Positions 1 through 62,398 of a stretch of 64,000 nt of DNA are shown one piece after another. A program made the position numbers and the translations under genes. Position 1 is the first letter of the stretch. Each line of letters begins with the position of its first letter. The stretch covers positions 49,197,001 to 49,261,000 of the forward strand of contig CM069876.1 in the NCBI GenBank assembly GCA_036172665.1, read 5' to 3'. This stretch comes from Prosopocoilus inquinatus (lineage: Eukaryota > Arthropoda > Insecta > Coleoptera > Lucanidae). The notes under the pieces were generated by a model, which was not told the DNA's origin, did not search any database, and saw only the letters and a program-made list of their open reading frames with translations.

Positions 1-91
1 GCCGTTCGGATGCAATTTGTGCGATTACAGGTCGACTCACAAGGGAAACGTAAAAACGCACATGATACACAGACATAAGAAGCAATTTTGA
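1..91 (+). CDS. Z0: 3' end of a C2H2 zinc-finger exon (partial)
   Basis: The reading frame enters from the left edge with codon CCG at base 2 and ends with TGA at 89-91. It encodes the last finger of an array: linker P-F, then C-N-L-C-D-Y-R-S, helix residues H-K-G-N-V-K-T, and the zinc histidines in H-M-I-H, followed by a basic tail R-H-K-K-Q-F. The rest of the gene lies outside the window, so the array continues to the left. Position 12 of the finger is Ser rather than Phe, with Tyr two residues after the second Cys, as in the other exons here. Confidence 0.8.
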   Translation, partial: PFGCNLCDYRSTHKGNVKTHMIHRHKKQF

Positions 92-768
92 ATGTAATTG
101 TTTGTTACTATCGTGTAAAACGCTCTGTATGTTGTAATTTTTAAGGGCTTTGTTGTAACTCGTAAGCGCGATGTATATAAAACAATTTTTGTTTATTTTT
201 AGCGTGTCATCTTCAAGGAGTAAACTATTAAAGATTTTTTTTATTGTTACTTGAATCTGCGTATTTTCTTGTAACTAATAATTACAAATTCGTTATACAG
301 GGTGTGTGATGTAAAGAACCAAGGACCAGGCGAAAATAAACTGATTAAAAAATGTATTAAAAATTAATAATTTGCAATAAGCAATTTACCTTGCGATTAA
401 TAGTAAAAGTGCTGTTACATATAAGTATTACACCCTGTATAAAAGACGTCCAAATTTTTTTTTTTTTCCTAAATGTGACTAGACTTTTCAGTGAAAGGGG
501 CGGAAGGAAGCACAAAAGCTTTTCTTTTTTATGCTTATGTCTTGCGACATTTAAAACAAACGCCTTTGCCGTAAATGTAAACGATTTTTCCTTCTTAATA
601 CGCTCTACAGGGTGTTGGTTAAAAAAACAACCGAACATTCGAATACAAGGAAATCATGCGTACAAACCGTTATAAATAGAATAGCAAACGCCTTCTGCGT
701 GAAATACCTACGATGACAAGTGAATCACTTGAAAATATCTTAAAATCTCACGAAACTTTTTGTTTCAG
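92..768. other. Spacer Z0-Z1 with small TIR element
   Basis: No gene is visible. A short inverted-repeat element spans about 296-441: its left end reads ATACAGGGTGT and its right end ACACCCTGTAT. A further ACAGGGTGTTGG terminus lies at about 608. A poly(T) run sits near 453. The last about 25 bases are the pyrimidine-rich acceptor of Z1. Confidence 0.5.
296..441. mobile_element. Short MITE with ACAGGGTG termini
   Basis: The terminal inverted repeats ATACAGGGTGT and ACACCCTGTAT are about 145 bp apart, and the interior is AT-rich and non-coding. The same terminus recurs more than 20 times in this window, so this looks like one member of a non-autonomous DNA transposon family. I do not assign a superfamily. 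Confidence 0.5.
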
Positions 769-1804
769 GTGTCCACGAACCCCCCTTAAAGCTAAAGCCG
801 CGAACAAAGCAATCAAATGTCGGATATGCGAGCAGAAGTTTACGTGCTGCGCGTATTTGCGCAAACACATTTTGATACATACCGGCGAGAAGCCGATCAG
901 CTGTGACCTTTGCGATTACAAATGCCGAGTTCCCGGCAGTCTGAGGCGGCACAAGTTAACACACGCCGCCGAAAAACCGTTCAGTTGCGACCTTTGCGAA
1001 TACAAATGCCTGGAATCCTGGGCGTTGATAAGGCACAAGCTCAAACACACCGGCGAGAAGCCATTCAGTTGCGATCTTTGCGAATACAGATGCCGAGCCG
1101 CCTGCGATATGAGAAAGCACAAGCTGCGACACACCATCGAGAAGCCGCTGAAGTGCGACCAATGCGAATACAACTGCCGATTATTCAGAGAAATGAAAAA
1201 GCACATGGCAATACACACCGACGAGAAGCCGTTCACTTGCGACGATAAATCCGGCATTGAGAAAGCTCACAAGTTAACAAAACACACCGACGTGAAGCGC
1301 TTCAGCTGCGATCTTTGCGAATACAAATGCGGAAAATCCGGTAGTTTGCAAAGCCACAGGCTGCGACACACCGGCGAGAAGCCGTTCACTTGCGACGTCT
1401 GCGACGTTAAATTCCGAAAGCTCGGGGACATGAAAAGGCACCGGTTGATACACGCCGACGAGAAGCCGTTCAGTTGCGATCTTTGCGATTACAAGTGCCG
1501 GACCGTGTGTCGTTTGAAACAGCACAGATTGAAACACACCGACGAGAAACCGTTCTGTTGCGAGCTCTGCGATTACAGGTGCCGGGATTCCGGAAACTTT
1601 CATCGGCACAGGTTGAAGCACGCCGACGAGAAGCGGTTCGGCTGCGATCTATGCGATTACAGATGTAACTACCGCGCGAGCGTGAAACGCCACAAGTTAA
1701 AGAAACACGCCGACGGGGAATCGGGAATCCTCTGCGGCCTTTGCGGTTACAGATGCAAATATCATAGGAATTTGAAAGGTCACCCGATGCCACACACGGG
1801 CTAG
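769..1804 (+). CDS. Z1: C2H2 zinc-finger terminal exon, 11 fingers
   Basis: The exon begins after TTTTTGTTTCAG (AG at 767-768) and adds one base to a split Arg codon, then encodes 344 residues. The leader is C-P-R-T-P-L-K-A-K. Finger 1 is C-R-I-C-E-Q-K-F. Ten further fingers follow, mostly C-D-L-C-(D/E)-Y-(K/R)-C. Between fingers 5 and 6 the scar C-D-D-K-S-G-I-E-K-A marks a finger that has lost most of its body but not the reading frame. An ATG at 713 is in frame, but only across the acceptor, so I treat it as intronic. The end is eroded: the Glu codon of the last TGE linker is TAG, and remnants of one more finger follow to about 1860. AATAAA lies at 1876-1881. Expected role: nuclear DNA-binding factor. 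Confidence 0.85.
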
Positions 1805-2079
1805 AAGCCATTTAAATGTCAAACATCAGTACGCTCTCTCTGCCAAAAGGCACAAGTTAAAACAAAAAGAAATTAAATAAAAATGTGAAGTGCGATAAAA
1901 AATACGGTTTGAAACTCGAAAGTAATCGAATCGTTCAATTGTTTTTTTTTTTGTTATTATACCTACATATATATATATTTTAAATCTCAATAAATATTTA
2001 TGTCGGAACCGGAAGTAATTAATTCTTTTAATTCCGACTCGATTTCCTTCCCCCTTTTTTAAAAACTGAGGCCATTACG

Positions 2080-2510
2080 CAGAAACGGATTACAGATTCG
2101 GAATCAGCGTCGTCGATTCTTTGGGATGGTGCTGACTCCATGAGAGTTTGTGAACGCCACCAACTTTTTTGAGGTTAGATGACGTCAGAAAAGGATTTTC
2201 GATTCGGAATCAGCGTCCTCGATTCTTTAGGACGGTATTATTCTTATTTGCCACTGACTCCATGCGAGTTGCGATTTGCTTCCATTTTTCCAAATAAAAA
2301 CGATTTACGCAGAAGCGGACTTCCGATTCGGAATCAGCGTCGTCGATTCTTCAGGATGGCACTATTATTTATTTGCCACTGACTCCATGCGAGTTGCTAT
2401 TTGCTTCTCTTTTTCCAAAATAAAACAGAGACGGACTTCCGTTGCGGAATCAGCGTCGTCGATTCTTTAGGATGGCAGTATTATTTATTTGCTGCTGACT
2501 CCATAATATA
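2080..2510 (+). repeat. Four tandem copies of a 105-125 bp unit
   Basis: The core GATTCGGAATCAGCGTC recurs near 2095, 2201 and 2324, with a slightly changed copy near 2441. Each is followed by CGATTCTTTRGGATGGC and, in most copies, by a GACTCCATGCGAGTTG block. Confidence 0.75.
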
Positions 2511-2514
2511 TATT

Positions 2515-3001: not shown

Positions 3002-3887
3002 ATGTAAATTGATCCTTAACGCTGCCAAAAAATTCGAATGCCGGACATGTGAATCCAAATTTACGAATCGTTCGTGTCTGCGCAGACACCAGCTCATACA
3101 CACCGGCGAGAAGCCGTTCGGCTGCGATCTCTGCGAGTACAAATGCCGACAGGCGGGAAACATGAGGAAGCACAAGTTGAAACACTCCGACGAGAAGCCG
3201 TTCGCCTGTGAGCTTTGCGATTTCAAATGCCGACACCTCGAAGGTCTGAAACGGCACAAGCTGAAGCACACCGACGAGAAACCGTACAGCTGCGATCTCT
3301 GCGATTTCAAGTGCCTGCACCTCGGCAGTTTCAAACGGCACCTGCTGCGCCACACCGACCAGAAGCCTTTCAGTTGTGACCTCTGCGATTATAAATGCCG
3401 ACAATCCGGACACATGGCGAGGCACAAATTAACGCACACCAGTGAGAAGCCGCTGAGCTGTGACGACAAACCATTCAGCTGTGATCTTTGCGACTTTCAA
3501 TGCCGACACGTTGAGGTTTTAAAACGGCACAGGCTAACGCACACCGACGAGAAGCTCTTTCGCTGTGACCTTTGCGAATACAAGTGCCGACTTGCTGCAA
3601 GTCTGAAACGTCACAAGTTGAGACACACCGACGAGAAGCGATTAAGCTGTGAATTTTGCGATTTCGTGTGTCGCCACCCGTCGAGTTTGCAACGGCACAA
3701 GTTAACGCACACCGATGCGAAGCCGTTCAGATGCGATCTTTGCGAATTCAAATGCCGACTCGAGGCAAATTTGAAACGGCACAGGGTGACGCATGTCGGC
3801 GAGAATCCGTTTAACTGTGATCTGTGCGATTTCAAGTGCCAATCCGCTATTTCTCTGAGAAATCACAAGTTAAAACATGAAACTTGA
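3002..3887 (+). CDS. Z2: C2H2 zinc-finger terminal exon, 10 fingers
   Basis: The acceptor CTCTTTGTTTCAG ends at 3001, and the exon starts with the base completing AGA. It encodes 294 residues: leader C-K-L-I-L-N-A-A-K-K, finger 1 C-R-T-C-E-S-K-F, then nine C-D-L-C-type fingers, several with Phe instead of Tyr after the second Cys (C-D-F-K-C). After finger 5 the sequence E-K-P-L-S-C-D-D-K-P-F-S-C-D has two linkers back to back, which is an in-frame scar of a deleted finger. The array ends R-N-H-K-L-K-H-E-T, with AATAAA at 3901-3906, only 13 bases after the stop. An ATG at 2970 is in frame across the acceptor and is probably not used. Confidence 0.85.
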
Positions 3888-5473: not shown

Positions 5474-6554
5474 GTGTCAACGGATCCCTGTGGATGAAAA
5501 AACTGCCGAATGTCATATATGTGGTTGTAAATTTAAATCTCACAGAAATGTGCGCGAACATATCTTAATGCATACCGGCGAGAAGCCGTTCAGTTGCGAT
5601 CTCTGCGATTATAAATGCCGACAATCCGGAAATATGAAAAAGCACAAACTGATACACTCCGACGAGAAGCCGTTCGGCTGCGACCTCTGCGAATTCAACT
5701 GCCGACACCTCGAGGGTTTGCGACGGCACAAGCTAAAACACTCCGACGAGAAGCCGTTCAGCTGCGATCTTTGCGATTTCAAGTGCCAACACCTCGGAAG
5801 TTTCAAACGCCACCAGCTAACTCACACCGACGAGAAGCCGTTCAGTTGCGACCTCTGCGATTATAAATGCCGGCAATCCGGAAACATGAAAACGCACAAG
5901 TTGAAACACGCCGATGAGAAACAGTTCGCTTGTGACCTCTGCGACTTCAGATGTCGAATTCCTGAAACCTTGAAGCAGCACAAGTATAAACACATCGACC
6001 TGAAGTTGTACAGCTGTGATCTTTGCTACTTCAAATCTCGTCGCCCGTCGAGTTTAAAACGGCACCGGTTAACACACAACGATGATAGGCCGTTCAGCTG
6101 CGACCTTTGCGAGTACAAATGCCGACTTGCTGCTTATCTCAAGCGGCACAAGTTAAGGCACACCGACGAGAAACCGTTCGCCTGTGACGTCTGCGATTTT
6201 AAATGTCGAGATGTGGGAAGTTTGAAGCTGCACAAGTTGAAACATACGGGCGGGAAGCCGCTTGGTTGTGACCTGTGCGATGTCAGATTCCGTTACCCAC
6301 GAAGTTTAAAACGGCACAAGTTGAAGTTGCACACCGACGAGAAGCCGTTCGGGTGTGAGCTTTGCGATTTCAGGTGCCGAAAGCTCGGGAGTTTGGAAGG
6401 GCACAAGGTGAAGCACACCGTCGAGAAACTGTTCCTCTGCGGCCGTTGCGGGTACAAATCCGAATTTTATGCAGAGCTGGAAGTTCACATGTTGATACAC
6501 ACGGACGAGAAGCCCATCGGTAGCGACAAAATTTGTAAAATAAAAGACAATTGA
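5474..6554 (+). CDS. Z3: C2H2 zinc-finger terminal exon, 12 fingers
   Basis: The acceptor CTTGTTTCAG ends at 5473. The frame upstream of it closes at TGA 5454-5456 without an ATG, so an earlier exon is required. The exon encodes 359 residues: leader C-Q-R-I-P-V-D-E-K, finger 1 C-H-I-C-G-C-K-F, then eleven fingers. Finger 2 has helix Q-S-G-N-M-K-K and finger 5 Q-S-G-N-M-K-T. Finger 7 has Ser at the Phe position, and finger 10 has an extra residue between its two histidines (H-K-L-K-L-H). The tail P-I-G-S-D-K-I-C is a broken finger with its first Cys changed to Ser. AATAAA lies at 6625-6630. Fingers 2-5 follow the order seen in Z2 fingers 2-5 (Q.GNM, HLEGL, HLGSF, QSG.M), so Z2 and Z3 are close paralogues. 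Confidence 0.85.
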
Positions 6555-6814
6555 AACTTTTGTTGCTCAATTTCTCTTTTTATATTTTTTTTTTCGAAAT
6601 GTCAAAAAATGTATAGGGTATCGAAATAAAAAAAAGAAAAAAAGAAATAAAATAGAGACCAATTTAATCATATCTGATTGATCATTTAGCGAAAGCAAAA
6701 TTCCCCAAAAACTGCAATAAAGTGATGCTTTATTCAAAAAAAAAAGAAATGTAACTTACACTTAAATTTAACGAAAAGAATGAATGTCAAATAAATCGGG
6801 TTCTTTTGTTTCAG

Positions 6815-7691: not shown

Positions 7692-7972
7692 GTTAAAACA
7701 CAAGATTTGACAAATTAGAAGAAAACTAGAAATCAGTAGCGTAGCGCGGACCATTCCGTCAGGGGGCGAAATGAAAATGAAGAAATGAAACAATCCGTCG
7801 CGAACGCGATTGTTTTTTGTTTTCATTTCTTTTTCAGGGACAATTACAAAATACATTGGTACAAAAACTTTTCTCTTATTTACCCACGAATTCGGCAGAA
7901 TCTCTTTTGTTTTTGGAGTACGGAGATAGAAAATTCAAAAGACGACCAACTTTCTTTTTTTTTGTGTTTCAG

Positions 7973-8669
7973 GTGTTTTCAACTGACCCCTATAATCGAA
8001 GCAACGCGCAAAGGAATACTCGTTTCTAAATTGTTCACGCCCGACCACAAGCACGTTTCGCCGCCCCACACCGGCGAGATGCAGTTCACTTGTGACTTTT
8101 GCGCTTATAAATGCCGACATTTCGGAAACATGAAGAAGCACAGGTTGACGCACTCCGACGAGAAGCCGTTCGCTTGCGACCTCTGCGGTTATAAATGCCG
8201 GCAGTCGGGGAACATGAAGAAGCACAAGTTAAAGCACACCGACGAGAAGCCTTTTGGTTGCGACCTCTGCGATTATAAGTGCCGACAGGCCGGTGATATT
8301 AAGACGCACAGGTTAACGCACTCCGACGAGAAGCCTTTCGGTTGTGATCTGTGCGATTATAAATGCCGGCAGTCCGGAAATATGAAGAAGCACAAGCTGA
8401 CGCACTCCGGGGAGAAGCCGTTCAGTTGCGATCTTTGCGATTATAAATGCAGACAATCCGGGAATATGAAGAAGCACAGGCTAACGCATTCCGACGAAAA
8501 ACCCTTCAGTTGTGATCTCTGCGATTATAAATGTCGACAGTCCGGAGATATGAAAGAGCACAAGCTGAAACACACCGACGAGAAGCCATTCAGTTGTGAT
8601 CTTTGCGAGTACAGGTGCCGACTTGCTAAATACTTGAAGCGGCACAAGCTGAAACACTCTTTCAGTTAA
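7973..8669 (+). CDS. Z5: C2H2 zinc-finger terminal exon, 7 fingers, repeated QSGNMKK helices
   Basis: The acceptor TTTGTGTTTCAG ends at 7972. The exon encodes 231 residues. The leader C-F-Q-L-T-P is followed by a degenerate first finger that has lost both cysteines. Seven intact fingers follow, with helices HFGNMKK, QSGNMKK, QAGDIKT, QSGNMKK, QSGNMKK, QSGDMKE and LAKYLKR. By the standard C2H2 recognition code, Q at -1 with N at 3 and a basic residue at 6 favours GAA triplets, so this protein may read a GAA-rich purine tract. The stop follows a deletion inside the next linker (H-S-F-S). AATAAA lies at 8815-8820. Confidence 0.85.
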
Positions 8670-9096: not shown

Positions 9097-9961
9097 GCAT
9101 CAATGGCCCCCCGTGCTTAAAAAAACATTCGAATGCGACAAATGCGATTCTAAATTTACATCTCGAGCGCAACTGCGCAAACATGTCCTCGTACACACCG
9201 ACGAAAAGCCGTTCGCTTGCGACCTTTGCGATTACAAATGTCGCCTGGGTAAATACCTGAAACGGCACAGGTTGAAGCACACCGGCGAGAAGCCGTTCAG
9301 CTGTGATCTTTGCGATTATAAATGCCGACAATCCGGAAACATGAAGCTGCACGTGTTAATACACACCGCCGAGAAGCCGTTCGGCTGTGATCTCTGCGAT
9401 TATAAATGTCGCCAGGCGGGAACCTTGAAAGTGCACAAGCTGAAGCACGCCAACGAGAAGCCGTTCGGATGCGATTCCTGCGATTATAAGTGTCGATATC
9501 AGAGAAACTTGAAGAGGCACAAGATGATGCACACCGACTTGAAGCCGTTCCGCTGCGACCTCTGCGATTATAAATTTCGAGAGGCCAGGCATCTGAAAGA
9601 GCACATGCTAACGCACACCGGCGAGAAGCCCTTGAGTTGCGATCTATGCGATTATAAATGTCGATACCACGGGAACTTGAAAAAGCACAGGTTAATACAC
9701 ACCGACGAGAAGCCATACGGTTGCGATCTCTGCGAGTATAAGTGCCGACAGGTCGGCAGCTTGAAGAAACACAAGTTGAAACATGCCGACGATGAACCGT
9801 TCCGTTGCGATCGCTGCAATTATAAATGCCGAGAGGTCAGGAACCTGAAAAGACATCAATTGAAACACACCGACGAGAAGCCGTTCAGATGTGGTCTTTG
9901 CGATTACATATGCGAAAGTTACGGAGATTTGGAAATACACGCGTTGGTACACAATGGCTAG
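9097..9961 (+). CDS. Z6: C2H2 zinc-finger terminal exon, 10 fingers
   Basis: The acceptor TTTTGTTTCAG ends at 9096. The exon encodes 287 residues. The leader is H-Q-W-P-P-V-L-K-K, so the usual Cys after the split Arg is His. Finger 1 is C-D-K-C-D-S-K-F. Finger 6 keeps Phe at position 12 (C-D-L-C-D-Y-K-F), and finger 10 is divergent (C-G-L-C-D-Y-I-C-E-S-Y-G-D-L). The stop TAG replaces the Glu codon of a TGE-type linker, and frame-matched remnants (CTGTTCGGCGTG) continue past it. Finger order and both flanks match Z7, so they are sister copies. Confidence 0.85.
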
Positions 9962-11167: not shown

Positions 11168-12635
11168 GCGTCGTCAACGTCACGTCGAAACTGCGAACAA
11201 GAAGAAATTCCAATGTCGGATATGCGGAACTAAATACACAACCCGCGCGTATTTGCGCAATCACATTCTCGTACACACCGGCGAGAAGCCGTTCAGTTGC
11301 GACCTTTGCGATTATAAGTGTCGACTTGCTAAATATCTGAAGCCGCACATGCTGAAACACACCGGCGAGAAGCCGTTCAGCTGTGATTCGTGCGATTACA
11401 AGTGCCGAAAATCCGGACGCATGAAACTGCACGCGTTGACACACACCGCCGCAGCCGAGAAGCCGTTCAGTTGTGACCTCTGCGATTTTAAATGTCGACT
11501 TGAAAAATACCTGAAGCAGCACATGCTGAAACATTCCAGTGAGAAGCCGTTCAGCTGTGACGTTTGCGATTATAGATGTCGACAGGCCGGAAGCATGAAA
11601 CTGCACGGGTTAATACACACCGCCGAGAAGCCGTTCAGTTGCGACCTTTGCGATTACAAGTGCCGACAGGCGGGAAGTTTGAAAGAGCACAAGCTAACAC
11701 ACTCCGGCGAGAAGCCGTTCGGCTGCGATGTCTGCGATTATAAGTGCAGATCTCAGGGAAAACTGAACAGACACAAAATGAAGCACAACGACTTGAGGCC
11801 GTTCGCCTGCGACATCTGCGATTTTAAATTCCGAGAGGCCGGGCAACTGAAAGAGCATAAGCAGACGCATACCGGCGAGAAGCCGTTTAGTTGTGGTCTT
11901 TGCGATTATAAGTGTCGACTTGGTAAATACCTGAAGCGGCACATGTTAATACACAACGGCGAGAAACCGTTCGGTTGTGATCTCTGCGATTATAAATGCC
12001 AACGGGTGAGAAGCTTGAGAATTCACAAGTTGACGCACTCCGGCGAGAAGCCTTTCAGTTGCGATGTTTGCGATTATAAGTGCCGGCAATTGGTAAATAT
12101 GAAGAATCACATGCTTAAGCATTCCGGCGAGAAACCGTTCAGTTGTGATCTCTGCGATTACAGATGTCGAAAATCCGGAGACATGAAGCAGCACAAGTTG
12201 ATACACGCCGACGAGAAGCCGTTCGGTTGTGATCTCTGCGAGTATAAGTGCCGGCAGGTCGGGACCCTGAGGAAACACATGGTGAAACACGCCGACGAGA
12301 AACCGTTCGCTTGTGACATCTGCGAGTATAAGTGCCTGCAGGTGGGAAACTTGAAGCAGCACAGGCTGACGCACTTCAACGAGAAGCCGTTCAGCTGCGA
12401 TCTTTGCGATTATAAGTGCCGACAAGCTGGAAATATGAAGAGGCACAAGCTGACGCATTCCGACGAGAAACCGTTCAGTTGTGATCGCTGCGATTACAAA
12501 TGTCGACAAGTCGAGAACTTGAGAAAACATCAACTGAAACACACCGACGAGAAGCCGTTCAGATGTGGTATTTGCGATTACATATGCGAAAATTACAGGG
12601 ATTTGGAAGTGCACGTGTTGGTACACACCGGCTAG
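11168..12635 (+). CDS. Z7: C2H2 zinc-finger terminal exon, 17 fingers
   Basis: The acceptor ATATTTGTTTCAG ends at 11167. The exon encodes 488 residues, one of the two largest arrays here. The leader R-R-Q-R-H-V-E-T-A-N-K-K-K is very basic and has one codon more than Z8, with the phase kept. Finger 1 is C-R-I-C-G-T-K-Y. The linker after finger 3 is expanded (H-T-A-A-A-E-K-P-F). Finger 8 keeps Phe (C-D-I-C-D-F-K-F). The last finger (C-G-I-C-D-Y-I-C-E-N-Y-R-D-L) and the terminal TAG at a former TGE codon match Z6. Six fingers in the interior are extra relative to Z6, which suggests internal expansion. Confidence 0.85.
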
Positions 12636-12824
12636 ATGCTGTTCGGTGTGACTTTGTTATAACAGCAATTGTTAAACGGATCCTCAACAATTGCATTGTT
12701 ATAACCAACCAAGGACGAAACGTGGTTCGGCAAATGCTTCCCATTCTGTAACACCAGCCCGGTACGTGGCATTGCCTGCTGTACAGAATGAGTAACATTT
12801 GCCTAATTATGTCTCGACCTTAGT

Positions 12825-13020
12825 TATAATCAACCCCCGAATAGACATATTTTTACGCCGCGCTCCACCTACAGCTACAATCAACCACCGGACAAACATA
12901 TTTTGACGCCACGCTCTACTTGCAGTTATAATCAACCCCCGAAGAAACATATTTTAACGCCACGTTCCTGCAGTTATAATCAACCACCGGACAAACATAT
13001 TTTAACGCCACGCTCCGCGT
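12825..13020 (+). repeat. Diverged 51-bp minisatellite units after Z7
   Basis: Four units starting TATAATCAACC(C/A)CCG share the 51-bp period and wording of the array after Z6, with the third slightly shortened. They show that the satellite travelled with the exon when Z6 and Z7 were duplicated. Confidence 0.75.
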
Positions 13021-13748: not shown

Positions 13749-14586
13749 GCGTCAACGTCAAACCAAAGCCGCGCACAAGAACGAATACCATTGCCGGATA
13801 TGCGAAGCTAAATTTGCGACCCGCGCGTATTTGCGCAATCACATTTTGGTACACACCGGCGAGAAACCGTACGGGTGCGATTTCTGCGATTATAAATCGC
13901 GATACGCGGGGAACTTAAAAAGGCACGTGTTGAAACACACCGACGAGAAACCGTACAGTTGTGACTTCTGCGATTTCAAGTGCCTACACCACGGAAGCTT
14001 CAGGCGGCACCAGCTGTATCACACCGGCGCGAAGCCGTTCGGTTGTGACGTTTGCGGTTTCAGATGTCGGCAGCTCGGTAGTTTGAAGCGGCACGCGTTG
14101 AAGCACACCGACGAGAAGCCGTTCAGCTGCGACGTCTGCGTTTTTACCTGTCGGGAGCTCACGAATTTAAAGCGGCACAAATTGAGGCACACCGCCGAGA
14201 AGCCGTTCAGCTGCGACCTTTGCGATTTCAAGTGTCGACGCCTCAGCAGCCTGAAACGGCACCAGCTGAGATACACCGGTGATAAGCCGTTCAGTTGCGA
14301 CGCGTGCGATTTCAAGTGTCGGTTTCTCTTCAACCTGAAGCGGCACCGGTTGAAACACACCGGCGAGACGCCGTACGCTTGCGATCTCTGCGATTACAAG
14401 GGCCGAGATGATACGAGCTTGAAGCGGCACAGGTTGAGGCACACCGGCGAGAGGCCGTTCGGCTGTGAGCGTTGCGGTTGTAGATTTCGTCGGCGCGCGC
14501 ATTTGAAACGGCACATGTCGACGCACACCGACGAGAAACCAGTACGAATACCGATAGCTGGGAAGCTTGAAGAGGCACAGGTTTGA
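13749..14586 (+). CDS. Z8: C2H2 zinc-finger terminal exon, 9 fingers, one with His-to-Tyr
   Basis: The acceptor ATTCTTTGTTCCAG ends at 13748. The exon encodes 278 residues: leader R-Q-R-Q-T-K-A-A-H-K-N, finger 1 C-R-I-C-E-A-K-F. Finger 6 ends H-Q-L-R-Y, so the fourth zinc ligand is Tyr instead of His and this finger may fold poorly. Finger 8 has Gly at the Phe position (C-D-Y-K-G). The final stretch after T-D-E-K-P-V is an out-of-frame reading of one more finger: the DNA still contains GGGAAGCTTGAAGAGGCACAG, which in another frame gives G-S-L-K-R-H-R. AATAAA lies at 14626-14631. Confidence 0.85.
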
Positions 14587-15414: not shown

Positions 15415-16531
15415 GTGTCACTGGATCATCCCCAAAGGTGAAACCGCGAATGAGGAAACATTCGAAAGCGATTCTAAATTAATACCTCCTCACATTCCGA
15501 CATATACCGGTCAAAATCTCTACGCCTGTGATCTTTGCGACTACAAAAGCCGATGTCTCACGTACTTGCAAAAGCACCTGACAAAACACACCGACGAGAA
15601 GCGGTTCGTCTGCGATCTTTGCGGCTTCAAGTCTCGTCACGGCACGAGCCTGCAGCGTCACAAGTTGAATCACACCGGCCAGAAGCCGTTCGCTTGCGAC
15701 CTCTGCGATTGTAAATCCCTGCGCGCCGAAAACTTGGCGCGGCACAAGCTGAAGCACACCGACGTCAAGCCCTTCGCTTGCGATCTCTGCGATTATAAAA
15801 GCCGCTACCTCAAGAACTTAAAAGAGCACACGCTGCTGCACACCGGTGAAAAGCCGTTGAGCTGCGAACTTTGCGATTATAAATGTCGACAGCCCGGACA
15901 TCTAAAACGGCACAGGTTGAAACACGCCGGTCAGAAGTCGTTCCGCTGCGATCTCTGCGATTATAAATCTCTCAGTCACGAGAATTTGATCCGGCATGCG
16001 CTGAAGCACAGCGGCGAGTTGCCCTTCGGTTGTGACCTGTGCGAATATAAAAACCCGCATCTCAAAAATATGAAGGAGCACAGGTTGAGGCACGCCGTCG
16101 AGCTGCCGCTTAGCTGTGATCTTTGCGATTATAAATGTCGACATGTCAGTCACTTGAAGCGGCACAAGTTGAAGCACGCCGCCGGCGAGAAGCCGTTCGC
16201 CTGCGATCTCTGCGATTACGTGACCGTGCGCCGCGAGAATCTGACGCGGCACAAGCTGAAGCACACCGACGAGAAACCGTTCGCCTGCGATCTCTGCGAT
16301 TATAAATGCCGGTACGTGAAGAATTTGAGGGAGCACATGCTGAGGCATACCGGCGAGAAGCCGTTGTGCTGTGAACTTTGCGATTATAAATGTCGGCAGT
16401 CCGGGCTGTTGAAGCGGCACATGTTGAAGCACGCCGGCGAGAAGCCGTTCAGCTGCGATCTTTGCGAGTTTGGGTATCAGGATGCGCAGTCCTTGAAAGG
16501 GCACAAGTTGAAGAAACATAATGTCCGCTGA
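15415..16531 (+). CDS. Z9: C2H2 zinc-finger terminal exon, 12 fingers in three-finger modules
   Basis: The acceptor CCCTTTGTTTCAG ends at 15414. The exon encodes 371 residues. The leader C-H-W-I-I-P-K-G-E-T is followed by a dead first finger whose cysteines are gone (F-E-S-D-S-K-L). Twelve intact fingers follow. Fingers 3-11 are three repeats of a three-finger module with helices (x-E-N-L-x-R-H), (x-K-N-x-(K/R)-E-H), (x-x-x-L-K-R-H). Many fingers have Ser, Asn or Thr instead of Cys at the Phe position, unlike the neighbours. The linker after finger 8 is lengthened (H-A-A-G-E-K-P-F). The last finger ends in K-K-H-N-V-R. AATAAA lies at 16572-16577. Confidence 0.85.
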
Positions 16532-42781: not shown

Positions 42782-43148
42782 GAAGCTCTTCACATTTTAT
42801 TAAATGCATCCATTCTTTGTTTTCTCTGTTTCTCGAACGATTTGGTAGTATTTTAGATGTTTCTCGGACGATTTGGTAGTATTTTAGAACGACCTTTATA
42901 ATATTAAATTACTTAAATTTCTCTCTACAATTGTTTTGTTTTCTTTTAGCCTACTTTTAGCAACGACAATTATGTCAAGATTTAATTAATGGTTTCGCTT
43001 CGTTTCATATTTAATTAATTAATTTTTTCGAACCACAATATATTGAAAGAACTCTCCTACTTTGTTTGCGTCTCCTTCGCGTTCCCATTTGTGCACGCCA
43101 CTGTAATATAAAAAAAAAAAAAAACAAATAAGCGATTGTTTGTTGCAG
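42782..43148. other. Spacer Z17-Z18
   Basis: A short AT-rich spacer with a direct repeat GATTTGGTAGTATTTTAGA at about 42839 and 42869, and a poly(A) run before the Z18 acceptor. No gene is seen. Confidence 0.5.
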
Positions 43149-43776
43149 ATGTGAAGGGATTCGCCAAGCCCAGCCGGTGAATAAGAAAACAATCGCCTGT
43201 CGGATATGCGACGTCAAAGTGACGTCGCGTTCGGCCTTGCTCAAACATGTTTTAATACACACCGGCGAGAAGCCGGTCGGTTGTAAGCTTTGCGATTTTA
43301 AATGCCGACGCCTCGAGGGTCTGAAACAGCACATGGCGACGCACGTTGACGAGAAGCCGTTCAGTTGCGATCTCTGCGATTATAAATGCCGACATCTCGG
43401 AAATTTGAAGAGTCACAAGTTAAGGCACATCGACGAGAAGCCGTTCAGTTGCGATCACTGCGATTATAAGTGTCGGCACCCGGGAGGCTTGAAAACTCAT
43501 ATGTTGAGACACACCGACGAGAAGCCGTTCAGGTGCGAGCTTTGCGATTATGAGTGCCGATACCTCGGGAGTTTGAAACGACACATGTTGAGGCACGCTG
43601 GCGAGAAGCCGTTCAGTTGTGACCTTTGCGATTATAAAAGCCGACAGCGCGGAACTTTGAAAAGGCACAAGTTAATACACGCCGGTGAGAAGCCGATCGC
43701 TTGTGATTTTTGTGATTATAAAGGCCGAAATCCGGGACATTTCAAGCAACACATGTTAACGCACGCGCACTTGTGA
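43149..43776 (+). CDS. Z18: C2H2 zinc-finger terminal exon, 7 fingers
   Basis: The acceptor GTTTGTTGCAG ends at 43148. In the exon frame a TAA lies at 43129-43131 with no ATG before finger 1, so splicing from an upstream exon is obligatory. The exon encodes 208 residues: leader C-E-G-I-R-Q-A-Q-P-V-N-K-K, finger 1 C-R-I-C-D-V-K-V (Phe replaced by Val). Finger 6 has Ser and finger 7 Gly at position 12. The end T-H-A-H-L resembles Z17 and comes from a similar small insertion before the linker; GAGAAGCCGGTCTG follows the stop. It is one of the shorter arrays. Confidence 0.85.
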
Positions 43777-45165: not shown

Positions 45166-45189
45166 CGTTGTCGAACTTCGAGCCAGACG

Positions 45190-47123: not shown

Positions 47124-47865
47124 ATGTCTGCTGATCCCTAAAGTTGAGCCAGCGGCTAAGAAAACAACCCTATGCCGAATTTGCAATTCCGAATTTAAAT
47201 CTCACGCGTATTTGCGCAGACACATCTTGATACACACAGGCGAGAAGCCATTCAGCTGTAACCTTTGCGATTATAAAGCCCGAGAGCTCGGAAATTTGAA
47301 GCAGCACATGTTGAAGCACACCGACGCGAAGCCGTTCACGTGTGACCTTTGCGATTATAAGTGCCGAGATCTCGGAAATTTCAAAAGGCACAAGCTAACG
47401 CACGCCGACGAGAAGCCGTTCAGCTGCAACCTCTGCGATTATAAGTGCCGGCAGCTCGGATCTCTGAAAAGACACACGCTGATACACACCGGCAAGAAGC
47501 CAATCAGCTGTGACCTTTGCGATTTTAAGTGCCGAGAAGTTGGGAATCTCAAGCAACACAAGCTGAGGCACCACGTTGCGGAGAAGCCGTTCAGTTGTGA
47601 CCTTTGCGATTATAAAGGCCGTGACCTCGGCAATTTCAACAGGCACAAGTTGAGGCACGCCGACGAGAAGCCGTTCAGTTGTAGCCTTTGCGATTATAGA
47701 TGCCGACAGCTCGGATCGTTGAAAAGGCATATGTTAAGGCACAGCGGTATGAAGCCGATCAGTTGCGATCTTTGCGAGTACAGATGTCGAGAGCTCGGAA
47801 ATTTGAAAAGGCACATGTTAAAACATACCGGCGGAAAACCGCTCAGTTCTGATCGTTGCAATTGA
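47124..47865 (+). CDS. Z19: C2H2 zinc-finger terminal exon, 8 fingers in three-finger modules
   Basis: The acceptor GATTCTTTGTTTCAG ends at 47123. Its upstream sequence (CTAAGAGAGATTCTTTGTTT) is nearly the same as that of Z20. The exon encodes 246 residues: leader C-L-L-I-P-K-V-E-P-A-A-K-K, finger 1 C-R-I-C-N-S-E-F. Fingers 2-4 have helices ELGNLKQ, DLGNFKR, QLGSLKR. Fingers 5-7 repeat them as EVGNLKQ, DLGNFNR, QLGSLKR, and finger 8 starts a third round (ELGNLKR). The linker after finger 5 is H-H-V-A-E-K-P-F. The end P-L-S-S-D-R-C-N is a broken finger with its first Cys changed to Ser. Confidence 0.86.
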
Positions 47866-48980: not shown

Positions 48981-50148
48981 AGGCGGCCAACCGATCCCTA
49001 AAGCTGAGTGGCCAGTGGCTAAGAAAACAACCGCATGCCGAATATGCAACTCCGAATTCAAATCGCGCGCGTACCTGCGCAGACACATCATGATACATAC
49101 GGGCGAGAAGCCGTTCACTTGCGATCTCTGCGATTATAAATGCCGAGAGCTCGGAAGTTTGAAGCAACACAAGCTGAAGCACACCGACACGAAGCCGTTC
49201 AGCTGCGACCTTTGCGATTACAAGTGCCGACAGGCCGGGCATCTGAAAGAGCACAAGCTGAAACACACCGGCGAGATGCCGTTCACTTGCGACCTTTGCG
49301 ATTACAGCAGTCGGAAGATTACGAACATGAAAAGGCACGTGTTAACGCACGCCGGCGGACAAAAGCCGTTGTTTACTTGTGACCTTTGCGATTATAAAAG
49401 TCGACAGCTCAAACGTCTGCAAGAGCACAAGTTAAAACACACCGTCGAGAAGCCATTCGGCTGTGACGCTTGCGATTATAAATGCCGAGATGCTAAAACT
49501 ATGAAACAACATGTTAAGTTAAAGCACGACGCCGCTGCGAAGCCGTTCGCTTGTGATCAGTGCGATTTCGAAAGCCGATACGTCAACAGCTTGAAACGAC
49601 ACGTGTTAACACACACCGACGAAAAGCCCTTCAGTTGTGACCTCTGCGATTATAAATGCCGAGAACACGGAAGTTTGAAACAACACGTGCTAACGCATGC
49701 CGACAGGAAACCGCTCGGCTGTGATCTCTGCGATTACAGGTGCCGGACCGTCGGGAATCTGAAAGTGCACAAGTTGAAACACACCGGTGAAATGCCGTTC
49801 GGCTGTGAGCTTTGCGATTATAGATGCCGAGAGCTCAGTCATTTGAAGCGACACAAGCTAAAGCACACTGACGAGAGACCGTTCGGCTGTGACCTCTGCG
49901 ATTATAAGTGTCGACAGGCCGGGGATATTAAAAAGCACATGTTGAAGCACACCGGCGACAAGCCGCACGCTTGTGATGTTTGCGATTATAAATGCCGCGA
50001 TTCCGGAACTTTGAATCGGCATAAGTTAACGCACACAGATGAGAAGCCGTTTGGTTGTGGTCTTTGCGATTTTCGATGCCGGCATCGCTCAAGCTTGAAG
50101 CCGCATATGTTAAAACACGCTGGCGAGAAGCCGCAAGGTATATCATAG
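48981..50148 (+). CDS. Z20: C2H2 zinc-finger terminal exon, 13 fingers
   Basis: The acceptor GATTCTTTCTTTCAG ends at 48980. The exon encodes 388 residues. The leader G-G-Q-P-I-P-K-A-E-W-P-V-A-K-K has one extra codon relative to Z11, with the phase kept. Finger 1 is C-R-I-C-N-S-E-F. Finger 4 is C-D-Y-S-S-R-K-I-T-N-M, followed by an expanded linker H-A-G-G-Q-K-P-L-F. Finger 6 has H-V-K-L-K-H spacing and linker D-A-A-A-K-P-F. Fingers 4 and 13 match Z12 fingers 4 and 12. The end A-G-E-K-P-Q-G-I-S is an interrupted linker. AATAAA lies at 50210-50215. Confidence 0.86.
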
Positions 50149-51282: not shown

Positions 51283-52462
51283 ACTGCAACAGTTACCTGT
51301 GAATAAGAAAACAATCAGGTGCGGAGTATGCGATTCCGAATTTAAATCTCGCACGAACTTGCGCAAGCATGTATTAATACACACCGGTGAGAAACCGTTC
51401 AGCTGTGATCTCTGCGGTTACAAATGCCGACAGGTCGGGTGTCTGGAACAGCACGCGTTCACGCATGCCGAGAAACTGTTCAAATGCAACGTCTGCGATT
51501 GCGAATTCCAAACGGCCCGATCGCTGAAAAGGCACGTGTTGATGCACACCGGCGAGAAGACTCAGTTCAGTTGCGAGACTTGCGATTACAAATGTCACCA
51601 GCTCAGACTTTTGAAACTGCACCGGCTGAAGCACACCGACGCGAAACCGTTCGCTTGCGATCTTTGCGATTACAAGTGCCGACAGCTCGGAAGCTTCAAA
51701 CTGCACAAGTTAACGCACACCGACGCGAAGCCGTTCAGTTGTGACCTCTGCGATTATAAATGCCGACAAGTCGGACATTTAACGGTGCACAAGTTAAGAC
51801 ACAGCGACGAGATGCCATACAGTTGTGATCTTTGCGATTATAAATGCCGAAATTCCGGATACTTGAAGCGGCACATGTTAAGCCACACCGACGAGAAACC
51901 GTTCGGTTGTGATCTCTGCGATTATAAATGTCGATACCCCGGATACTTGAAGAAGCACATGTTAAGACACACGGACGAGAAACCGCTCGGCTGTGATCTT
52001 TGTGATTACAAATGCCGACACCTCGGAAACTTGAAGGAGCACAAGCTGAAGCACACCGATGAGAAGCCGCTGAGCTGTGAACTCTGCGATTTTAAGTGTC
52101 GGTATTTCGGAAGTCTGAAACTGCACAAGTTAAAGCACGCCGGCGAGAAGCCGTTCGGTTGTGATCTCTGCGATTATAAGTGCCGGGGGCTCGGTAATCT
52201 GAAAAAGCACAAGTTAAAGCACGTGGAAGAGAAGCCGTTTAGTTGTGACGTTTGCGGTTATGGATTTCGACAGCTCGAGAATCTGAAACAACACAGGCTA
52301 AAGCACACCGATGAGAAGCCGTTTGGTTGTGAGCTTTGCGATTTCAGGTGCCGGCATTACGCCAGCTTGAAACGCCACAAGTTAAAACACACCGACGAGA
52401 AGCAAGGCGGAAGTTTGAAACAACGTAAGTTAAAAACGCACCAAGAAGAAGCAGTGACGTAA
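51283..52462 (+). CDS. Z21: C2H2 zinc-finger terminal exon, 13 fingers
   Basis: The acceptor TTTCTTTGTTTCAG ends at 51282, preceded by ATGAAAATTCTAAG. The exon encodes 392 residues: short leader L-Q-Q-L-P-V-N-K-K-T-I, finger 1 C-G-V-C-D-S-E-F. After finger 2 comes the short linker H-A-E-K-L-F-K, then C-N-V-C-D-C-E-F and a lengthened linker T-G-E-K-T-Q-F before C-E-T-C-D-Y-K-C. Fingers 1-10 match Z25 almost one to one. The tail Q-G-G-S-L-K-Q-R-K-L-K is the helix of a 14th finger whose cysteines were deleted, then a frameshift. Z21 may be the parent of the 5' half of Z25. Confidence 0.86.
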
Positions 52463-55036: not shown

Positions 55037-55949
55037 ATGTGAAGGGATCCTGGACGTCAAACCGTCGAATAAGAAAACATTCGAGTGCCACATTTGCGAC
55101 GCGAAATTTAAATGTTGCAGGAATCTGCGCACGCACATACTGATACACACCGGCGAGAAACCATTCAGCTGCGACCTCTGCGATTATAAATGCCGGGAAC
55201 ATAAAACCTTGAAGAGGCACAAGATGAAGCACAGCGACGAGAAGCCGTTCACTTGCGACCTTTGCGATTACAAGTGCCGACACGTCGCAAGCTTGAAACG
55301 GCACGAGCTGAAGCACACCGCCGAGAGCCCGTTTACCTGCGACCTTTGCGATTATAAATGCCTGCACCGAGGCAGTTTGAAACAGCACAAGCTGACGCAC
55401 ACCGATGAGAAGCCGTTCAGTTGCGACGCGTGCGATTATAAATGCCGGCAGGCCGGGCACTTGAAAGAGCACAAGTTGAAACACACTAACGAGAAGCCGT
55501 TCGGCTGCGAGCTCTGCGATTATAAATCGCGACACCTCGGAAATATGAGACAGCACAAGCTGACGCACACTGGCGAAAAGCCGCTGGTTTGTAATCTTTG
55601 CGATTATAAGTGTCGACAACTGCGAAGTCTGAGAGAGCACAAGCTGAAGCACACTAATGAGAAGCCGTACGGTTGTGAGCATTGCGATTATAAGTGCCGA
55701 CAGCTGAGGAGATTGAAGCAGCACGAGTTAACGCACGCTAGTGAGAAGCCGTTCAAATGTGAGCGCTGCGGGTACGCATCCGTGTGCGCTGCGACTTTGA
55801 AACGGCATGTGTTAAAGCACACAGGCGAGAAGCGGTTGAGTTGTGACGTGTGCGATTATAAATGCCGAGCGCTCGGAGATTTGAACGAGCACATGTTGAA
55901 GCATTCCGACGAGAAACCAATCAAGTGCGAAAATGTCGATTTGCTGTAA
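55037..55949 (+). CDS. Z23: C2H2 zinc-finger terminal exon, 10 fingers
   Basis: The acceptor ATCCTTTGTTACAG ends at 55036. The exon encodes 303 residues: leader C-E-G-I-L-D-V-K-P-S-N-K-K, finger 1 C-H-I-C-D-A-K-F. Finger 9 is C-E-R-C-G-Y-A-S-V-C-A-A-T-L and finger 10 has helix A-L-G-D-L-N-E. Fingers 4, 5, 6, 9 and 10 correspond to Z25 fingers 11-15. The end K-C-E-N-V-D-L-L is a cut-off finger. AATAAA lies at 55968-55973, followed by a small hairpin AATCAC-GCTTCGCTT-GTGATT that also follows Z25. Confidence 0.86.
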
Positions 55950-56855: not shown

Positions 56856-57348
56856 ACGTCAACGAATCCGCAAAGCTAAGCCAGCCAATAAGAAAACAGT
56901 CACGTGCCGGATTTGTGATTTTAAATTTAGATCTCGCGCAGCTTTGCTCATGCACATTTTAATACACACCGGCGAGAAGCCGTTCAGTTGTAACCTTTGC
57001 GGTTACAAATCCAGGCAACTCGGCGGTTTGAAACAGCACATGCTAAAGCACACCGACGAGAAGCCGTTCAGTTGCGACCTTTGCGATTTTAAGTGTCAGC
57101 GGTTCGAAAGCTTGAAGCGGCACAAGCTGAAGCACACCGACGACAAGCCGTACGGATGTGATCTTTGCGATTATAGATGCCGCCTGTTGGAATACTTGAA
57201 GCAGCACAAGTTGAAGCACACCAATGAGAAGCCGTACGGTTGTGATCTTTGCGGATTCAGGTGCCGATACCGGACGAGTTTGAAACGGCACAAGGTGCAG
57301 CACACTGATGAGAAACCGTTCGGTTGTGACGAAGGCGACGTTGAGTGA
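56856..57348 (+). CDS. Z24: short C2H2 zinc-finger terminal exon, 5 fingers
   Basis: The acceptor TTTTTTTGTTTCAG ends at 56855. The exon encodes 163 residues: leader R-Q-R-I-R-K-A-K-P-A-N-K-K, finger 1 C-R-I-C-D-F-K-F, then QLGGLKQ, RFESLKR, LLEYLKQ and YRTSLKR fingers. The array stops at a fragment of a sixth finger, F-G-C-D-E-G-D-V-E. Z26 has the same five fingers and the same ending, so the truncation preceded their duplication. AATAAA lies at 57384-57389. Five fingers could still recognise about 15 bp. Confidence 0.86.
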
Positions 57349-59290: not shown

Positions 59291-59326
59291 TCGGGCATGA
59301 AAATTCTAAGCGATTCTTTGTTTCAG

Positions 59327-60644
59327 ATTGCGACGGATCACCAGAGTCGAACCAGTGAATAAGAAAACGATCAAATGCGGGATATGCGATTCTGAATTTA
59401 AATCTCGCGCAAATTTGCGCAAGCACGTGTTAATACACACCGGTGAGAAACCGTTCGGCTGCAATGCGTGCGATTATAAATGCCGGCGGTTCGAATGTCT
59501 GAAACAGCACGCGTTCACGCACGCCGAGAAACTATTCAAATGTAACGTTTGCGATCGCGAATTCCAGACGGCTCGATCGCTAAAAAGGCACGTGTTGATG
59601 CACACCGGCGAGAAGACGCAGTTCAGTTGCGAGACTTGCGATTACAAATGCCGTCAACTCGAACTTTTGAAACGGCATCGCTTGAAGCACACCGACGCGA
59701 AACCGTTCGCTTGCGATCTTTGCGATTACAAATGTCGACAGCGTGGAAGTTTCAAACTGCACAAGTTAACGCACACCGACGCGAAGCCGTTCAGTTGTGA
59801 CCTCTGCGATTATAAATGCCGACAGGCTGGACATTTGACGTTGCATAAGTTAAGACATAGCGATGTGATGCCGTTCGGTTGTGATCTTTGCGATTACAGA
59901 GGCCGAAATTCCAGGTATCTGAAGCGGCACATGTTAAGACACACAGACGAGAAACCGTTGAGATGTGAAGTTTGCGATTATAAATGCCGATACCCCGGAT
60001 ATCTGAAGAAGCACATGTTGCGACACACCGACGAGAAACCGCTCGGCTGTGACCTTTGCAATTATAAATGCCGACACCTCGCGAACTTGAAGGAACACAA
60101 GCTGAAGCACAGCGATGAGAAGCCGCTGAGCTGTGAACTCTGCGATTTTAAATGTCGGTATTTCGGAAGTTTGAGGCTGCACAAGCTGAAGCACGCTGAC
60201 GAGAATCCGTTTAGCTGTGACGTTTGCGATTATAAATGCCGATACCGGGGCAGTTTGAAGCAGCACATGCTGACGCACACGGATGAGAAGCCTTTCAATT
60301 GCGACACGTGCGATTATAAATGCCGACAGGCCGGTCATTTGAGAGAGCACAAGTTAAAACACACCAACGAGAAGCCGTTCGGTTGTGAACTCTGCGGTTA
60401 TAAATCCAGACACCAGGGAAATTTGAAACAGCACAAGTTAACGCACGCTGGTGAGAAGCCGTTCACTTGCGAGCTTTGCGGGTATGCATCCGTGTACGCT
60501 GCGTTTTTCAAACGGCATATGAAGAAGCACGCAGGCGAGAAGCGGTTCAGTTGTGATGTGTGCGATTATGAATGCCGAGCGCTCGGAGATTTGAACGAGC
60601 ACAAGTTGAAGCACACCGATGAGAAGCCGTTCAAATGCGAGTAA
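59327..60644 (+). CDS. Z25: C2H2 zinc-finger terminal exon, 15 fingers, likely Z21/Z23 chimera
   Basis: The acceptor GATTCTTTGTTTCAG ends at 59326, preceded by ATGAAAATTCTAAG. The exon encodes 438 residues: leader L-R-R-I-T-R-V-E-P-V-N-K-K, finger 1 C-G-I-C-D-S-E-F. Fingers 1-10 follow Z21 in order (short H-A-E-K-L-F-K linker, TARSLKR, YPGYLKK, YFGSL), with T-G-E-K-T-Q-F at the same place. Fingers 11-15 follow Z23 (RGSLKQ, QAGHL.E, ASVYAA, ALGDLNE). Both flanks agree: upstream repeats as in Z21, downstream hairpin and TIR element as in Z23. The end K-P-F-K-C-E is a truncated finger. Confidence 0.88.
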
Positions 60645-60718
60645 AAATATCAATTTGCTGCACGTCTCATAAACACGGAATTGTATAATCACGCTTCGCT
60701 TGTGATATTATTGGGTAT

Positions 60719-60742
60719 TACCAGGGAAAAGAATTCAGGCCT
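60719..60742. mobile_element. Solo left end of a CCAGGGAAAAGAATTC element
   Basis: TACCAGGGAAAAGAATTCAG at the same distance from the stop as the element after Z23. No inverted partner was found downstream. Confidence 0.6.
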
Positions 60743-61146
60743 CTTGAATGGCAAGACAAAAGACATAATCTTCGACTACGCAAAGGAATGTCACGCGCAG
60801 TTTGCAATAAAATTCTTTTCGAAATCAGGCTCTGATCTACTAACAAATTAAAATCGATTTTGAGAATTTTTTTTGGCTAAAAAAAGCTTATTACTTGATC
60901 GGGGAATACCTTTGTATCGGACGATTTTCTTTAACATGATTGTAACGTCTTAAGCCCGGTTTTTATTCAAATTATTCAAAGATTGAATTTAGTTGACGCT
61001 TATCATGTGACATTTCACTATGAACAGCGTATCCCTGTAGCACATTCTAAGTGATAAATAAATTTAATCTTTTGAATAAATAGTTAATCACATCTGGCGA
61101 AATCGAGCATCAGTGTTTTCAGTAATGTTACTGTACTTGCTGTACT

Positions 61147-61365
61147 ATGATGTTCTCGATTCGTGCATTAGAATTAGGGTCAGTTTTGGCTTTATTGATT
61201 TGCGACGTGCTTGGAGCAGTATGATGTTCGCGATTCGTGCATTAGGGTTAGGGCCAGTTTTGGCTTCATTGATTTACGACGTGCTTGGAGCAGTATGATG
61301 TTCTCGATTCGTACATTAGGGTTAGGGCCAGTTTTGGCTTTATTAATCTGCGACGTGCCTGGAGC
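61147..61365 (+). repeat. Three tandem copies of a 74-bp unit
   Basis: ATGATGTTCTCGATTCGTGC starts at 61147, 61221 and 61295 (with single changes), each followed by TTAGGGYCAGTTTTGGCTT and TGCGACGTGCTTGGAGCAG. A single diverged copy precedes Z17 at about 41480-41560. Confidence 0.8.
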
Positions 61366-61851
61366 AGTTGCTTTGTGGTGTCCCCATCGTCTGGCTGGTG
61401 CTTGGAGGGGCTCTGTCTCATTTTTGCTGTGCGTTCGTCTCAGAGACGTCGCGCAATTTTGATTAAGGTGAGGGGAACCTCGGGGAGATTTCCTTAGTTT
61501 AGTCCTACATTTTCTCGATTTTGACGTGGCGTTTGTTTTTTTTTTTTTCTTTTTTTCCTTGACATGGAAACCAAAATTACCAAGTGAAGTATTCGGACTC
61601 GCAATGACTACAAATATGTAAAAAAGCTTCTCTAAGAGCCGCTTTACATCTATCAAAATTTGTAGAAAATCTTGTACAAAGTGAGAGAGACAGACAGTTC
61701 ACATCTATTGGTTAAATCGATGCTTCTTTGTCATTTTGCGCAAGAAATTGTAACAAATTTCAATAGATATAAAACGGCTCTTATTCATTAGAGATTCAAT
61801 CTCTTCTTCTTTGTTACGTTTCCACGTGCATTTGTATTTGTAATGAGTCCC

Positions 61852-61871
61852 TTCTCTCTCTCTCTCTCTCT
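61852..61871. repeat. (TC)n microsatellite
   Basis: About ten CT dinucleotides, 31 bases upstream of the Z26 exon. It may act as a distal part of the pyrimidine tract. Confidence 0.85.
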
Positions 61872-61902
61872 ACGAAAATTTTAATATTATTCCTTGTTCC
61901 AG

Positions 61903-62398
61903 GTGTCAATGGATCGCCGATGTTAAACCAATCCTGAATAAGAAAACAGTCACATGCGGGATATGTGACTCTAAATTTAAATCTCGCGCAGCTTTGCGCA
62001 TGCACGTCTTAATACATACCGGCGAGAAGCCGTTCCGCTGTAACATTTGCGATTTTAAGTGCCGTCGGCTCGGAGGTTTGAAGCAGCACAAGTTGACGCA
62101 CGTCGACGAGAAGCCGTTCACTTGCGATCTCTGCGATTATAAATTCCGACACTTCCAAAGTCTGAAGCGGCACACGCTAAAACACACCGACGAGAAGCCG
62201 TTCGGTTGTGATCTTTGCGATTACAAGTGCCGCCTGTTAGAGTATCTGAAGCAGCACAGGTTGAAGCACACCGACGAGAAGCCGTTCGGTTGTGACCTTT
62301 GCGATTTCAGATGCCGGTACCGGACGAGTTTGAGACGGCACAAGTGGCAGCACACTGATGAGAAACCGTTCGGTTGTGACGAAGGCGACGTTGACTGA
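61903..62398 (+). CDS. Z26: short C2H2 zinc-finger terminal exon, 5 fingers
   Basis: The acceptor TTCCTTGTTCCAG ends at 61902. The exon encodes 164 residues: leader C-Q-W-I-A-D-V-K-P-I-L-N-K-K, finger 1 C-G-I-C-D-S-K-F. Fingers 2-5 have helices RLGGLKQ, HFQSLKR (Phe kept at position 12), LLEYLKQ and YRTSLRR, then the stub C-D-E-G-D-V-D. The whole exon and about 100 bp of 3' flank match Z24. It is the last finger exon in the window. Confidence 0.86.

Follow-up and report, generated by a model that had tools for sequence, protein, structure and literature searches.

Clustered KRAB, ZAD, and THAP zinc-finger genes encode poly-finger proteins, multiply by duplication, and vary at their DNA-contact residues. 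In lola, cis- and trans-splicing connects common 5' exons with one 3' exon out of about 20 unique ones, the majority of which encode zinc fingers (PMC1947980, PMC11426971). The mod(mdg4) locus, the 5' part of which encodes a BTB domain, likewise has many alternative 3' exons, which in Drosophila lie on both strands and come in some cases from separate precursors that are trans-spliced; its acceptors have expanded via duplication, and at least 31 isoforms, mostly with FLYWCH domains, are described (PMC4528330, PMC4667647). The ZF271-like/APEZ proteins of insects (Hemiptera) carry 3-45 tandem C2H2 fingers and no other known domain, and turn over rapidly; they are encoded by separate genes, some clustered in groups of 4-8 with differing exon structure, and the available part of that report mentions no shared 5' exon (PMC6444547). 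The locus described here is a block of C2H2 zinc-finger exons in the 650-Mb genome of Prosopocoilus inquinatus, on contig CM069876.1 (hereafter C8), and the stretch analyzed (the window) comprises the 64,000 nt of C8:49197001-49261000.

A sequence-only reading of this window had described an array of zinc-finger terminal exons sharing strand, leader, and splice phase, most of them without an ATG before finger 1, and had proposed that they may be interchangeable 3' exons served by shared 5' exons lying outside. The array is confirmed and is larger than first described, and the scarcity of start codons holds. The best explanation is probably a block of alternative 3' terminal exons served by one or more shared 5' exons elsewhere; the apparent need for an upstream coding exon and the lack of a recognizable one beside the units bear out that proposal in part, and the shared exon itself was seen neither in the window nor in the 100 kb to its left.

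Structure of the terminal exon array

The window contains 24 open C2H2 terminal exons and one degenerate leader, every one on the + strand. The 5' end of the block coincides with the left edge of the window, and the block runs on rightward, with 26 further units to the right of U24 up to C8:49358781, the end of the sequence examined, so that 50 units lie within 161 kb (C8:49197769-49358781) on a single strand and in a single phase. The exons encode 5 to 20 C2H2 fingers apiece, joined by short linkers; pattern matching and reading of the translations revealed no additional domain in them.

The acceptor at the start of every unit is of the TTTGTTTCAG type and leaves one base of the exon to complete a split codon. 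This phase is common to 50 of 50 units, the nine leader lengths of which are all 1 mod 3. Phase was not a criterion in the placement of 49 of these acceptors, which was done by script; that of U3 comes from a separate analysis of the window. The search required an AG and pyrimidine richness, and did not require T at -5 and -6 or G at -7. Information content is 1.5-2 bits at nine of the ten positions of TTTGTTTCAG and mostly 0.05-0.5 bits upstream of -28. The G at -7 stands inside the pyrimidine tract in 47 of 50 units, and may, speculatively, mark the binding site of a splicing regulator.

When the leaders of the 50 units are translated, 797 codons contain no stop, compared with a mean of 40 and a minimum of 22 in 300 shuffles. 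No in-frame ATG occurs in the leader, or upstream of it before a stop, in 41 of 50 units, and an in-frame stop is at most 60 nt upstream in 17 of the 24 window units and at most 120 nt upstream in 23. The terminal exons of the window, and three of the spacers between them, are listed below in window coordinates.

769..1804, + strand: U1, terminal exon, 11 fingers
3002..3887, + strand: U2, terminal exon, 10 fingers
5474..6554, + strand: U3, terminal exon, 12 fingers
6555..6814, + strand: spacer before U4, 260 nt; one 7/9 donor, one 6/9 donor, four AATAAA
6815..7691, + strand: U4, terminal exon, 10 fingers
7692..7972, + strand: spacer before U5, 281 nt; zero donors even at 6/9
7973..8669, + strand: U5, terminal exon, 7 fingers; 118-nt leader remains in phase after loss of finger 1
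9097..9961, + strand: U6, terminal exon, 10 fingers
11168..12635, + strand: U7, terminal exon, 17 fingers
13749..14586, + strand: U8, terminal exon, 8 fingers
15415..16531, + strand: U9, terminal exon, 12 fingers; 112-nt leader remains in phase after loss of finger 1
19463..20945, + strand: U10, terminal exon, 17 fingers
24480..25779, + strand: U11, terminal exon, 14 fingers
26699..27785, + strand: U12, terminal exon, 12 fingers
29441..30248, + strand: U13, terminal exon, 9 fingers
31702..32929, + strand: U14, terminal exon, 14 fingers
38323..39124, + strand: U15, terminal exon, 9 fingers
41905..42781, + strand: U16, terminal exon, 10 fingers
42782..43148, + strand: spacer before U17, 367 nt; zero donors even at 6/9
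43149..43776, + strand: U17, terminal exon, 7 fingers (acceptor placed by eye)
47124..47865, + strand: U18, terminal exon, 8 fingers
48981..50148, + strand: U19, terminal exon, 13 fingers
51283..52462, + strand: U20, terminal exon, 13 fingers
55037..55949, + strand: U21, terminal exon, 10 fingers
56856..57348, + strand: U22, terminal exon, 5 fingers
59327..60644, + strand: U23, terminal exon, 15 fingers
61903..62398, + strand: U24, terminal exon, 5 fingers

A search with leader plus finger 1 returned at least 150 matches; 147 of those listed are on the + strand of C8, where two blocks hold 90 and 57 of the listed matches. These + blocks are separated by other genes on both strands, and related arrays lie on the - strand. 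Leader matches are repeated at an exact 10,283-base shift (three pairs) at C8:49380900-49397385, and one pair is shifted by 10,288 bases at C8:46771486-46781875, which suggests either that blocks were copied recently or that the assembly contains a duplicate. Elsewhere on the + strand, the finger exons L002 (C8:50.67 Mb) and L004 (50.57 Mb) have leaders of other types and L007 (C8:47.40 Mb) has the window-type leader FRCQRI, all three with AG/R acceptor entry as judged by eye. On the - strand, L031 and L032 (C8:51.092-51.101 Mb) form a second C2H2 exon array with a different leader family, some exons of which are apparently entered at AG/R acceptors in the same phase (translations, by eye).

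The spacers and the search for local first exons

If each unit had its own first exon, the spacers would be expected to carry donors. Splice donors are at background in the 24 window spacers (at least 7/9, 69 vs 62 ± 8 expected; at least 8/9, 6 vs 7.3 ± 3) and again in 49 spacers (at least 7/9, 182 vs 187 ± 14; at least 8/9, 19 vs 22 ± 5), and two window spacers, against 0.7 expected, are without any 6/9 donor. In a translated comparison, no open reading frame (ORF) recurred in more than two others of the 25 window spacers or in more than five others of the 49, which agrees with the earlier observation that no 5' exon recurs between units; no ORF of at least 15 residues recurs widely, and the top recurring ORFs among the 49 resemble repeat DNA, matching in several frames. 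As a control, leader plus finger 1 was picked up by the identical search in 22 units of the 24; the remaining two no longer have finger 1. When exons were planted at 45% identity, those of 20-30 codons or more were well detected and those of 10 codons were not, so first exons that are short (about 10 codons) or below 45% identity could escape; the leaders themselves average 33%. Segments resembling exons in the codon preference of the finger exons peaked on the + strand at 7.3, 4.9, and 8.2 for the three phases and did not surpass a minus-strand control run in one phase, which reached 12.0 and 9.3.

Pfam profiles, run on the + strand in three frames over 18 of the 25 window gaps (the gaps before U1, U4, U5, U6, U9, U17, and U22 were left out), revealed no BTB, ZAD, THAP, KRAB, or SCAN domain, and nothing was found at E 0.01 on the minus strand, also in three frames, in eight large gaps. 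DUF1655 exceeded the cut-off once, inside a 105-bp tandem satellite (12.8 copies, window 45188-46523), and HTHP, tautomerase-like, ACI44, and reverse transcriptase matches fell below it; all are taken as chance or relics. Other repeats include a 51-bp repeat in two adjacent spacers (10454-10943 and 12822-13023) and large inverted repeats at 35901-37288, 33971-34635, and 22227-22572, which are probably foldback elements. The motif TGACGTCA occurs eight times in the window, always outside finger exons (2180, 11113, 13683, 16664, 16711, 41094, 63000, and 63050), with two copies 55 and 66 nt before an acceptor. Seven copies of TTACGTCA lie on the + strand (28760, 41306, 41435, 44407, 51137, 58985, and 59176), five of them belonging to one repeated element, and one on the - strand. 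Both motifs may belong to promoters from which separate precursor transcripts start.

The search for a shared 5' exon

The sequence-only reading had suggested looking to the left of the window for a BTB-type or other 5' exon ending in AG before a donor. The BTB profile has no match in the 100 kb left of the window and none on C8 between 35.24 and 51.20 Mb; a 5' donor may lie elsewhere in the genome. The nearest 10 kb to the left contains, on the + strand, no Pfam domain except fingers. Of the exons in the left 100 kb that end after the second base of a codon, only three exceed the background score, and two of these are in an ABC transporter. The third, at 49.1102 Mb, has the highest score of any left-flank candidate (44.8, shuffles up to 9.3) and does end in AG before a 7/9 donor; its frame passes the donor to a stop and looks membrane-protein-like, and by eye, with no Pfam match, it was judged a separate gene.

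Two BTB matches lie at 51.20-51.22 Mb, near the related - strand array (51.05-51.10 Mb). The domain is identified there by Pfam, and the hosts are presumably an ARM+BTB gene and a germ-cell-less-like gene; as the matches sit in what are apparently other genes, they were rejected as 5' donors. L033 (C8:46716427-46716687), which belongs to a + strand gene situated 8 kb to the left of the other block, is an exon we take to be UBA-like; it has no Pfam match. It too was rejected: its sole 7/9 donor falls on a codon boundary, so that the phase is unfit, and the frame continues to a stop. Within the 8 kb examined, no exon encoding a following domain was recognized. Among the best 150 of 448 THAP candidates, none lies on C8 beyond 44.72 Mb. 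Matches between the left flanks of the two + blocks were judged to be dispersed repeats, plus finger sequence.

Alternative explanations

Tandem duplication of a two-exon zinc-finger gene, with a first exon too short or diverged to be recognized in the spacer, or lying beyond it, is the alternative that would give every unit its own start; we consider it unlikely. Neighboring units do resemble one another above chance (mean rank distance to the best match 5.5 vs 8.4, fraction 0.009, 22 units), therefore duplication did occur, as the sequence-only reading had cautioned in noting that phase may be kept by descent. Exons of about ten codons, or as diverged as the leaders, could have been missed, and 12 of the 24 window spacers hold some in-phase ATG-to-donor candidate with a donor of at least 7/9. 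Against this stand the background level of donors in both sets of spacers, the lack of a widely recurring ORF, and the spacers of U5 and U17, which have no donor even at 6/9. Furthermore, U20 and U23, the closest pair of units, share similarity over some 410 nt before the acceptor, where no donor better than 6/9 is conserved, and the spacers leading to U22 and U24 resemble each other only directly behind the preceding stop (87%) and, to some degree, close to the acceptor (61%). Distinct local first exons, which the sequence-only reading had named as the rival outcome, were thus not seen. Separate transcripts, each capped by a generic mini-exon that brings its own AUG, are very improbable. Acceptors without donors are the expected look of such a system, and AUG-bearing spliced leaders, which occur in flatworms, would explain the absent starts. 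A generic leader is not, however, expected to keep so many units in one phase, and an Rfam scan confined to the window, with no genome search for leader RNA genes, gave no match. Leader splicing is also described as frequent in trypanosomes and nematodes and rare in insects (PMC4667647).

That the block is mostly dead, its exons being open through recent duplication and gene conversion and not through use, is improbable. It would be consistent with the degenerate leader, with degenerate fingers inside open exons (e.g., U1 and U2), and with the exact 10,283-base repeat of matches at 49.381-49.397 Mb, which suggests recent copies, but in all 50 units the leader and the fingers lie in a single open frame, the leaders are free of stops, and finger 1 is under coding constraint, with differences of 0.28, 0.22, and 0.44 at the three codon positions across 22 units. 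It is scarcely credible that the acceptors are unused and that an unspliced exon is translated from upstream, C-F-R-C being plain coding sequence. Most units do show C-F-R or a similar reading in the frame across the acceptor, and at -8 to -6 TGT is almost invariant; the upstream in-frame stops and the lack of an ATG in most units oppose this explanation, on which the invariant acceptor AG, a search requirement, has no bearing as counter-evidence.

Several points also weigh against alternative 3' exons served from elsewhere. Phase and strand are partly inherited by descent, and the shared 5' exon was found neither in the window nor in the 100 kb to its left; nor was any 5' exon common to the left flanks of both blocks (10 kb of block 1 compared with 100 kb of block 2). 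Codon changes in the leaders lack a third-position excess (0.44, 0.41, and 0.42; 10 units), whereas finger 1 of the same 10 units gives 0.27, 0.23, and 0.44; mean identity among units is 33% for leaders and 60% for finger 1. A poly(A) hexamer follows within 400 nt of the stop in 20 of 24 units, a moderate excess over the 14.6 expected. Finally, a perfect donor (CAG/GTAAGT) at window position 41775, the sole 9/9 donor among the 24 window spacers, closes a 38-codon in-phase ORF (41660-41775) 129 nt before U16; it was rejected as the end of a local first exon, its coding score of 7.3 lying within the minus-strand control.

Diversity and evolution of the finger arrays

The most variable finger positions are the contact positions -1, 2, 3, and 6, together with position 1 (entropy 2.7-3.5 bits), followed by two positions near the second histidine (2.3-2.4 bits). 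There are 185 distinct contact quadruplets among 234 fingers, and finger 1 is less variable at the contact positions. Contact codons exceed the rest of the finger in amino-acid change in four of the five unit pairs examined (17/52 vs 34/221, 21/40 vs 39/170, 24/52 vs 56/221, and 23/40 vs 28/170), the exception being U22/U24 (3/20 vs 20/85). This pattern looks like that of a diversifying set of DNA-binding proteins. Fingers 1-10 of U23 match fingers 1-10 of U20 in the same order (81-94% identity), and each of its fingers 11-15 is better matched by a U21 finger than by any U20 finger (79-90%; order not strict). U23 appears from these matches to be a fusion of U20 and U21 copies, and new finger arrays may arise through the joining of neighboring terminal exons.

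A model of the locus

According to the explanation we favor, alternative 3' terminal exons would make up a large block, with the window at its 5' end. Each of these exons would start at the conserved 3' splice site TTTGTTTCAG and add one base to the codon of the upstream exon, and would then be read through a short linker-like leader, a distinctive finger 1 in most units, and 5-20 C2H2 fingers to a stop. Because most units have no start codon and none has a recognizable first exon of its own, the protein start would most likely come from elsewhere, with the N-terminal part supplied by one or few 5' exons outside the block. Strand, phase, the translated leader, the lack of an ATG in most units, the absence of recognizable local first exons, and the size of the block are displayed by the sequence itself; from it we infer a 5' part common to the units. 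At least part of the joining might further be in trans, as in mod(mdg4), because leader-type units form two + blocks with genes on both strands between them and related arrays on the - strand. More tentatively, and with the balance of probability somewhat against it, the locus could be a megabase store of well over 100 exchangeable poly-finger exons, lying in blocks with unrelated genes between them, that are joined, at least partly by trans-splicing, to one or a few constant 5' exons encoding a single effector domain, by a mechanism like that of mod(mdg4). Such a store would approach the scale of the mammalian KRAB zinc-finger repertoire. If other poly-finger families were built likewise, their gene models might lack an effector domain because the effector exon had been assigned to another gene.

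Comparison with known systems

Among the best full-length protein matches examined and the short lists from leader searches, no protein with a window-type leader was recognized. The closest finger proteins listed are a mix from insects, other arthropods, and vertebrates; in contrast to the C8 units, four Plutella and three Nilaparvata relatives keep recognizable N-termini that are 77-93% identical. A literature search, covering mostly titles and the starts of abstracts and leaving many journals outside its coverage, brought up nothing recognizable as poly-finger terminal exons arrayed together and served by a common 5' exon. The ZF271-like/APEZ proteins are similar by description in their long C2H2 arrays, short linkers, and lack of another domain in the exon. 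KRAB, ZAD, and THAP zinc-finger proteins each have their own N-terminal part, whereas none is seen in the C8 units, which show neither the donors nor the widely recurring N-terminal exon of a tandem array of complete genes, at least down to the exon length and identity at which planted exons were detected.

Of the likeness to lola and mod(mdg4), the part that the sequence-only reading had drawn from the exons stands: many 3' terminal exons each encode a DNA-binding domain (50 units in 161 kb, known here from sequence), and one splice phase, partly inherited, runs through all 50 variable exons. It does not extend to the BTB 5' part of lola, since neither a BTB domain (C8, 35.24-51.20 Mb) nor the 5' part was found at the C8 locus. 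By analogy, the locus would work like lola and mod(mdg4), but it is not classed with them because the BTB 5' exon sought there was not found. The exons themselves also differ, as those of lola presumably carry one or two fingers each, compared with 5-20 per exon here, and mod(mdg4) has mostly FLYWCH domains in place of C2H2 arrays and fewer units. If the favored explanation is correct, a single locus would give rise to a very large set of DNA-binding proteins sharing one effector, far above the approximately 20 isoforms of lola and 30 of mod(mdg4).

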